The notes beneath the pieces are model-generated. The model ran no database searches. It was given only the letters and a program-made list of their open reading frames with translations, and was not told where the DNA came from. From NCBI RefSeq assembly GCF_900162665.1, contig NZ_LT727809.1, forward strand, positions 307,539 to 371,538: a DNA stretch of 64,000 nt. The letters are read 5' to 3'. This DNA comes from Oceanobacillus sojae (lineage in GTDB: Bacteria; Bacillota; Bacilli; Bacillales; Amphibacillaceae). This document shows positions 8,733 through 9,784 of the stretch, piece after piece; within the stretch, counting starts at the first letter, position 1, and each line of letters starts with the position of its first letter. The translations under genes and the position numbers were made by a program.

Positions 8733-8779
8733 GTTTATAGAGGAAGTTCAAAAAGTCCAATAAAAATGACACGGCGATA

Positions 8780-8843
8780 AGAGGATCTTCTACTAAGGGC
8801 GCCCACGTCGTGTGGACAACGTAGAAGCCACCGCATCCTGCGG
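8780..8843 (+). other. 64-nt structured module, copy A
   Basis: Predicted fold: stem P1 CTTCTAC/GTAGAAG encloses hairpin P2 CCAC-GTCGT-GTGG; hairpin P3 CCGCA-TCC-TGCGG follows. The 5' tract AGGAT is the reverse complement of ATCCT at the P3 loop, permitting a pseudoknot. Compared with copy B (8923-8986), the stem changes are compensated. Confidence 0.6.
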
Positions 8844-8922
8844 AAGTACGTTGACGAGATTTTTCCAATGGGACTGCGATTACTCACCCCACCAAAAGCG
8901 TTACTCACGTATTATAAAGCAT

Positions 8923-8986
8923 AGAGGATCTTCTGTTAAGATCGTCCACGTCGTGTGGACAACACAGAAGTCATCACATCCTGTGA
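8923..8986 (+). other. 64-nt structured module, copy B
   Basis: Same fold as copy A with P1 CTTCTGT/ACAGAAG, P2 GTCCAC-GTCGT-GTGGAC and P3 TCACA-TCC-TGTGA. Twelve positions differ from copy A; eight of them form four double changes that keep Watson-Crick pairs. Loop sequences GTCGT and TCC and the 5' AGGAT tract are unchanged. Confidence 0.6.
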
Positions 8987-9097
8987 TAGCCCGTTCGTAA
9001 AAAATTCGTCGCCTTGAACTTCTTGGTCCTATTTATCGTACTTTTTGAACACTCATTTATCAGGAAGTAAATATTTAATACAATGAAGGAGGTTAAT

Positions 9098-9784
9098 ATG
9101 GACTTAAGTCAGCTGGAACAGGAACTGGGAATAACCTTTCAACAAAAGGATTTATTAAAGGAAGCATTTACACATTCTTCTTACGTCAATGAATATAAAA
9201 AAAGTAAGCTTGAGGATAATGAACGGCTGGAATTTTTAGGTGATGCTGTGCTTGAATTAGCTGTTTCACAATATTTGTATAGAAATAATCCCGCCATGCC
9301 TGAGGGAGAAATGACTAAATTACGGGCGGCCATCGTTTGTGAAGCATCTTTAACTGTTTTCGCAAAGCAATCTGACTTTGGACAGTACATCCTTTTAGGA
9401 AAGGGCGAGGATAAGACCGGCGGAAGACAAAGACCGGCAATTTTAGCTGATGCTTTTGAGGCTTTTTTAGGAGCGCTCTATTTAGATCAAGGCTTTGATG
9501 CAGTGCTGAACTTTTTGAACACGCATATTTTCCCTACATTAACAGTAGATACATCAACAAGTGTGATGGATTATAAAAGCCATCTGCAGGAAATTGTTCA
9601 GCAGCAGAAGGATAGAAAAATTGAATATCAAATTATTAGTGAGCAGGGCCCTTCTCATCATAAAGAGTTTATTGCCCAGGTTATGATTCAGGGAGAGCCG
9701 GCAGGAAAAGGAAATGGAAGAACGAAAAAAGAAGCAGAGCAAAAGGCAGCAAAAGCAGCATTGGAGAAAAAACTTCCAAAATAA
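9098..9784 (+). CDS. rnc: Ribonuclease III
   Basis: 228 residues. It is the double-strand-specific endonuclease that processes rRNA precursors, scRNA and sense-antisense duplexes. The signature NERLEFLGDAVLELA is at about residues 40-54, with the second acidic cluster at ADAFEAFLGALYLD and a C-terminal double-stranded RNA-binding domain (about 155-228). ATG 9098 is chosen over in-frame ATG 9083 because AAGGAGG lies at 9086-9092. In this genome it is isolated from acpP by a palindromic repeat, so its promoter must lie in or just after that element. A bidirectional terminator follows. Confidence 0.95.
   Translation: MDLSQLEQELGITFQQKDLLKEAFTHSSYVNEYKKSKLEDNERLEFLGDAVLELAVSQYLYRNNPAMPEGEMTKLRAAIVCEASLTVFAKQSDFGQYILLGKGEDKTGGRQRPAILADAFEAFLGALYLDQGFDAVLNFLNTHIFPTLTVDTSTSVMDYKSHLQEIVQQQKDRKIEYQIISEQGPSHHKEFIAQVMIQGEPAGKGNGRTKKEAEQKAAKAALEKKLPK

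Follow-up and report, generated by a model that had tools for sequence, protein, structure and literature searches.

The window analysed here (the whole stretch of 64,000 nucleotides from Oceanobacillus sojae, contig NZ_LT727809.1, positions 307,539 to 371,538) carries, between genes which we take to be acpP and rnc (the latter being the frame at 9083-9784), two similar 64-nt modules whose stems have changed in step; the question raised by this locus is whether such changes are the mark of a working RNA or of some process acting on the DNA. Among sequence signals, compensated stem changes count as the best evidence of functional RNA, and the initial annotation of the locus concluded from them that a folded RNA or single-stranded DNA must be under selection.

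Of the 64 positions of the two copies, 8780-8843 and 8923-8986, 12 differ, as first described, and eight of these 12 make up four double changes that stay Watson-Crick (pairs 13:43 and 14:42 in P1, 52:64 and 54:62 in P3); when 12 random substitutions were placed on copy 1, four compensated pairs were reached in none of 200,000 simulations, the maximum being three, in 53 runs. At 23:37 in P2, copy 1 has a C-A mismatch where copy 2 has T-A; in the element alignment described below, most of the related copies occupying this site have C-G. The picture of two related, folded modules with true compensation, set within a palindromic element, holds. The statement that they belong to no named family was wrong: a comparison with Rfam, proposed in the same annotation, assigns both to RF01690 (Bacillaceae-1) above its gathering score of 35, the site-1 module with 59.7 bits over 8777-8844 and the site-2 module with 64.4 bits over 8920-8987. 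The agreement extends to sequence and structure over the full 67 positions of the family, with its P1, P2 and P3 fold present (save the one P2 mismatch of copy 1) and with two hairpins having RUCCU-type loops; the window copies differ from the family in the P2 loop, which is GTCGT in both, while the P3 loop is ATCCT in both and the loop consensus of the RF01690 model is CGUCCUG and CaUCCUG. A G at the changed P2-loop position is found in 24 of 211 distinct copies. Bacillaceae-1 was published as a candidate RNA, with the table entry "RNA? Y" (PMC2864571), its strand was uncertain to its discoverers and its reverse complement matches a CsrA-binding motif (PMC4333381), and eight copies have been reported in Bacillus subtilis (PMC8208703).

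Further copies, which the initial annotation had suggested seeking, exist, and their stems are compensated: over 17 pairs in the 110 distinct rows of one set, the covariation score is 0.489 (shuffled mean 0.126, reached by none of 500 shuffles), and 94.8% of the cells are paired. In an alignment of 29 elements, counted by eye, the 5' arm CTTCTAC occurs in 14 of 15 filled site-1 modules and CTTCTGT in 11 of 12 filled site-2 modules; since the arms track the site, the pair changes of the window represent an old difference between two module types rather than a recent event at this locus. The pseudoknot envisaged between the AGGA lead and the TCCT loops is not supported, since no compensation links them: A replaces G at lead position 7 in 24 rows, 22 of which have an unchanged C in the P3 loop; a lead C accompanies G at loop position 33 (24 rows) or 61 (21 rows) in none, and the only two C7 rows keep C in both loops.

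Both modules are parts of a 316-bp palindrome with terminal inverted repeats, in which the two module sites are filled. Its features, with strand, are the following:

8735-8740, no strand: left target duplication TTATAG, read in the window sequence; a family-wide direct repeat
8741-9056, no strand: whole MITE-like palindromic element, 316 bp, from inverted repeats, alignment and the empty site in L096
8741-8770, plus: left end AGGAAGTTCAAAAAGTCC and terminal inverted repeat arm, from repeat analysis and alignment
8780-8843, plus (Rfam strand): site-1 module, RF01690 match
8787-8793/8821-8827, 8801-8806/8812-8817 and 8831-8835/8839-8843, plus: P1, P2 (one C-A mismatch) and P3 of the site-1 module
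8853-8864, plus: left inner arm (long stem), hypervariable from copy to copy, from arm comparison
8870-8902, plus: small hairpin cassette GGGACTGCGATTACTCACCCC..., found in only some element copies
8911-8939, minus: promoter-like TTAACA-17-TATAAT, a consensus match only (11/12)
8923-8986, plus (Rfam strand): site-2 module, RF01690 match
8999-9010, plus: right inner arm, partner of 8853-8864 (10/12 Watson-Crick, one G-U, one mismatch)
9026-9056, plus: right terminal inverted repeat arm and end ...GAACACTCAT, from repeat analysis and alignment
9057-9062, no strand: right target duplication TTATCA, two mismatches to TTATAG (row L095 305)

The terminal arms 8746-8770 and 9026-9050 are 84% complementary, and no ORF of at least 80 aa lies inside the 316-bp element. 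As expected for a palindrome, the whole element folds better than its shuffles, with z of -3.0 as DNA, -3.1 as plus-strand RNA and -4.0 as minus-strand RNA. The promoter-like site (8939-8911 on the minus strand) has its first hexamer in module 2 and points to module 1; two promoter-like sites are found in the region, against 1.0 expected.

The element belongs to a dispersed family. In the host genome, blastn returned 78 places for the element, RF01690 was found in 56 places (55 over the cut-off), and 59 elements could be parsed, with ends near AGGATGTTCAAAAAGTC...GACTTTTTGAACACRCAC (given also as AGGATGTTCAAAAAG) and sizes from 34 to 408 bp, measured from outer edge to outer edge of the 12-nt anchors; the 408-bp anchor pair is probably due to chance (6/6 mismatches in the direct repeat). 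Flanking direct repeats of 6 nt, one mismatch being allowed, were seen at 39 of the 59 elements (permuted mean 11.3, maximum 20 in 2000 permutations), and the duplicated target is an A/T-rich 6 bp with consensus TWWWAG; the window's own element has a duplication with two mismatches. The element is missing between acpP and rnc in L096, a close relative, and the same gap of another species, L101, harbours an independent element with two modules, one per strand, whose empty site is seen in the neighbour L102 with AATAATAG on both sides. The empty element was found in 31 of 58 genomes. The L143 element at 1565 measures 45 bp, hardly more than its two ends, and has a perfect 6-bp direct repeat; several further family members are shorter than 100 bp.

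Bacterial MITEs and small palindromic repeats, such as bcr1 of the Bacillus cereus group and RUP and BOX of pneumococcus, are short and geneless, with inverted repeats and a target duplication. The present element shares with them its small size, the absence of a gene, terminal inverted repeats, target duplication and many intergenic copies; it differs in having interchangeable hairpin cassettes at fixed sites and inner arms that are hypervariable but complementary, and in that no autonomous partner was found in 20 stretches around unassigned left ends. In these 20 stretches, a non-exhaustive sample of the genome whose frames were judged by eye from the first 45 residues, no transposase gene was recognised between two family ends, the contents being ordinary-looking genes or smaller palindromes. 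Plasmid and phage records gave no element match at E 1e-5. An apparent tandem duplication was observed at L126 752-1934, where 165- and 127-aa frames with identical starts occur twice, 656 bp apart.

Alignment of the 29 elements revealed two cassette sites per element, each either filled or empty, so that versions with zero, one or two modules occur: site 1 reads GGCGAATTTCTGCGTTGAC when empty and GGCGATAAGAGGATC...GGAAGTGCGTTGAC when filled, site 2 AAGCATACGCTCCG when empty and AAGCATAGAGGA...AAAGTCCG when filled. The RF01690 module is here, unlike in its description as a family, a cassette within a mobile palindrome. It is not tied to this element, since 15 of the 45 module-bearing genomes (45/58, the window's own included) have no match to the element. 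Up to 68 copies per genome were found, with at most 71 candidates scored in each, and a strict module pattern occurs in at least 118 stretches of named genome records; the 80 matches listed are, going by their titles, presumably all from Bacillales. Among 28 genomes of the same genus, G010 and G013 are the only two without RF01690 and also the only two without the element. The module is also present within other repeats: similarity to another copy extends more than 30 nt beyond both sides in 182 of 266 distinct module copies, some of these pairs being perhaps orthologous or duplicate records.

Gene context shows no preference of strand: in codirectional gene gaps the module lies on the same strand in 43 cases and on the opposite strand in 43, with 32 modules in convergent and 16 in divergent gaps (196 deduplicated modules, 41 of them overlapping a crude ORF of at least 300 nt and 21 at an edge). 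At L037 1391-1567 the spacer between 16S and 23S contains two modules in the orientation of the rRNA, the first starting 8 nt past the 16S match; these two copies are presumably transcribed. By eye, modules immediately after the 3' end of 16S were also noted in L035, L277, L278 and L279.

Compensation is also seen in the inner stem of the element, which lies outside RF01690. In the host genome, 41 elements yielded 34 distinct arm pairs, 11 places with no left anchor or more than one having been dropped. At pairs 4-8, 147 of 170 cells are Watson-Crick, against a mean of 77 and a maximum of 99 when the right arms were permuted (2000 permutations), and in 52 of these 147 cells both sides differ from the commonest pair; the remaining 23 cells comprise 6 G-U, 4 A-C and 13 other. 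Over all 12 pairs of the arms (408 cells) the counts are 377 Watson-Crick, 8 G-U, 7 A-C and 16 other, and 25 distinct 5-nt arm cores are present in this genome alone. Four other genomes, pooled, behave alike (32 distinct arm pairs from the 38 of 40 loci that could be parsed), with 133 of 160 Watson-Crick cells at pairs 4-8 (permuted mean 71, maximum 90), 10 G-U and 2 A-C there, nine of the 10 G-U stemming from four poorly pairing arms of GGYTTGC type, and 342 Watson-Crick, 10 G-U, 9 A-C and 23 other over all pairs; in the backbone arms, A-C does not outnumber G-U. Departures from consensus amount to 35% in arm columns 4-8 and to 5.5% in the adjoining 40 nt, the latter a figure to be read with the fact that the first 16 of the 40 nt served to find the element, the other 24 averaging about 8%, with single columns up to 39%. 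Since the inner arms are hypervariable yet complementary, compensation is a property of the whole palindrome, and what was too strong in the initial annotation is the implication drawn from it, the compensation itself being real: DNA-level upkeep of the palindrome, for instance by template switching, which creates and maintains stems in one step (PMC8794818), could explain the compensation of the modules as well.

The pairs of the module itself have statistics unlike those of an RNA transcribed from the plus strand. Applied to three locus sets, a model built from 19 copies found 55, 88 and 128 matches, respectively (271 rows; the third set is 100 of the at least 118 pattern loci), that is, 211 distinct rows over columns 6-67 once rows with more than 10 gaps there were excluded. 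Their 3494 cells comprise 3316 Watson-Crick, 22 G-U, 79 A-C and 77 other; the frayed end pair 11:49 contributes 20 A-C and 1 G-U, and without it the counts are 21 G-U and 59 A-C. Intact copies only (n=202) give 14 and 45; counted per identity cluster, without 11:49, they are 18 and 45 at 95% (102 clusters) and 16 and 26 at 85% (33 clusters). Riboswitches from the same genomes served as controls, with structures obtained by RNAalifold and the module treated alike: the SAM riboswitch (30 rows) has 788 Watson-Crick, 28 G-U, 6 A-C and 10 other, the TPP riboswitch (29 distinct rows) 629, 63, 3 and 16, and the module (197 rows) 2794, 17, 70 and 57, although three random sets of 30 module rows, with 9, 14 and 4 G-U and 14, 14 and 7 A-C, show less contrast. 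With G-U rarer than A-C, the reverse of what these two riboswitches display, the annotated strand is unlike RNA; the reverse-complement reading gives 74 G-U and 17 A-C, which keeps an RNA of the minus strand viable, and the consensus fold is deeper on the reverse strand (-23.4 against -18.0).

Taken as a whole, the matching stem changes resemble maintenance of palindromes at the DNA level more than the evolution of a working RNA. The reading which we prefer, at slightly less than even odds (roughly 0.47), is that of a MITE-like element carrying Bacillaceae-1 hairpin cassettes, with arms that stay complementary through a process acting on DNA, probably template switching. In this reading the element entered the acpP-rnc gap with duplication of a 6-bp A/T-rich target; the palindrome may extrude, or turn single-stranded during replication or transposition, and one arm would then be copied from the other by template switching, in the manner of quasi-palindrome correction. 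Because one arm would serve as template for the other, both could change at once, without G-U intermediates and without a functional RNA. In PMC8794818, compensated stem changes likewise arise in one step; the difference is that the process was proposed there for RNA genes, and is invoked here for a dispersed mobile palindrome and also outside any RNA family. Several observations weigh against this reading. Template switching by itself would leave the loops and unpaired letters of the module (TAA, C24, AAC, TCCT) much less conserved than they are, which means that something selects on them; the excess of A-C over G-U in the module hints at a folded RNA of the opposite strand; G-U is not rarer than A-C in the backbone, and the copies of the rRNA spacer are presumably transcribed. 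Inverted loops, which are a footprint of template switching, are not observed, G being absent from loop columns 31 and 59 in all rows, and neither an autonomous partner nor a transposase was found in the stretches and Y1 loci checked.

A close rival to template switching is selection for the folded single strand, whereby the hairpins would be recognised as single-stranded DNA by a recombinase or transposase, fold-breaking mutations being lost and compensated copies spreading; unlikely as we hold it, it would account for the conserved single-stranded letters and loops, for compensation in module and backbone alike, for the lack of favour shown to wobble pairs in the module (as expected for DNA), for inserts which sit in loops and for modules lying within larger repeats, with the caveat on orthologous or duplicate pairs given above. 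Hairpins of IS200/IS605 and REP elements have a short conserved tag 5' of their foot, and insertion takes place beside a short tetranucleotide; the modules share the hairpins, the tag and the insertion next to a tetranucleotide, but differ in having no associated Y1 gene. Indeed, only one of 30 Y1 loci (about 1.5 kb on each side) contains a module, and five genomes with 13-44 modules (G002, G004, G012, G022 and G024) have no Y1 match, so that the obvious mover, a Y1 transposase of the IS200/IS605 or REP (RAYT) type, was rejected. A two-step route through mismatched intermediates also predicts more of them than are found among the arms, where 23 non-Watson-Crick cells stand against 52 compensated ones.

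The two RNA readings fare less well. The strand opposite to the Rfam annotation might give a functional RNA whose AGGA loops bind a protein such as CsrA, the many copies acting as decoys; we consider this improbable, even if the CsrA-like motif of the reverse complement and the discoverers' doubt about the strand (PMC4333381), the excess of G-U and deeper fold of the reverse strand, the minus-strand promoter-like site pointing to module 1 (a consensus match only) and the presence of CsrA in the host speak for it. CsrA is encoded in 56 of the 58 genomes, whatever their module count and including 12 of the 13 module-free ones, and being nearly universal it makes the co-occurrence uninformative; both window copies have lost GGA from the P2 loop (GTCGT), so that on the minus strand they carry it in the P3 loop only; gene orientation is unbiased; and the share of G-U on the reverse strand is still low (74/3131, compared with 28/832 for SAM and 63/711 for TPP). 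Very improbable, in our judgement, is the original proposal, a true non-coding RNA transcribed from the strand annotated in Rfam: its strong covariation, its "RNA? Y" entry in the table of PMC2864571 and the rRNA-strand copies in the spacer of L037 are consistent with it, but G-U is rarer than A-C, unlike in the SAM and TPP riboswitches of the same genomes and despite a covariance model that, if anything, prefers G-U, copies are as numerous as 68 per genome (again with at most 71 candidates scored in each), and a bias of orientation is absent.

As a weaker extension of the preferred reading, TCCT loops, once exposed, might receive further hairpin cassettes, so that branched palindromes would be built stepwise. 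Every insert of at least 5 nt placed by the model in the 271 module copies, 20 in total, falls within a P2 or P3 (TCCT-type) loop, a placement which is suggestive only, since 12 of the 20 are cassettes of GGGACTGCGATTACTC type, are not independent and may reflect few events, and since the covariance model may tolerate inserts in loops better than others. A cassette of about 60 nt ending in TCCT follows TCCT in 4 of the 4 places found by pattern, in two genera. The GGGACTGCGATTACTC cassette does so in 12 of 28 places; it refutes the notion that insertion always takes place after TCCT, which on this count is not its sole site. By eye, a module-like piece was recognised within the P2 loop of a module in L083 and L170, and the GGGACTGCGATTACTCACCCC... 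cassette occurs elsewhere within the P2 loop of a module.

More broadly, it could be proposed that RF01690 is a DNA hairpin cassette and not an RNA, that Bacillaceae have a modular class of mobile palindromes which grow through their TCCT loops and rewrite their arms rapidly, and that replication itself generates the covariation; we regard this general form as doubtful. Were it true, many copies would carry a private self-complementary arm, and DNA replication would in this case produce the covariation that is the usual proof of functional RNA. If the pattern holds, RF01690 and perhaps other Rfam families borne by repeats need re-examination, and the element offers a natural test of template switching, with dozens of copies per genome in which hypervariable, self-matching arms stand beside far less variable sequence. 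The module was already catalogued and its status as RNA is in doubt; its setting in a mobile palindrome is new as far as the literature search goes, the texts retrieved, in part as extracts and mostly from outside the subscription journals, containing no account of Bacillaceae-1 within a mobile element.

Other repeats take part in the same landscape. The hairpin of about 34 nt GGGACTGCGATTACTCGTCCCACCGAAAA..., present in the window at 8870-8902 and also in L004, L007, L010, L070, L076-L079, L082 and L310, is dispersed and often lodged in other repeats. A large palindromic repeat of the type GGAGACTCCTGCGGG...CCCGCGGAAAGCG was noticed by eye in L268-L272, L042 and L179, which represent two genera or more; close to its centre lies a Bacillaceae-1 module.
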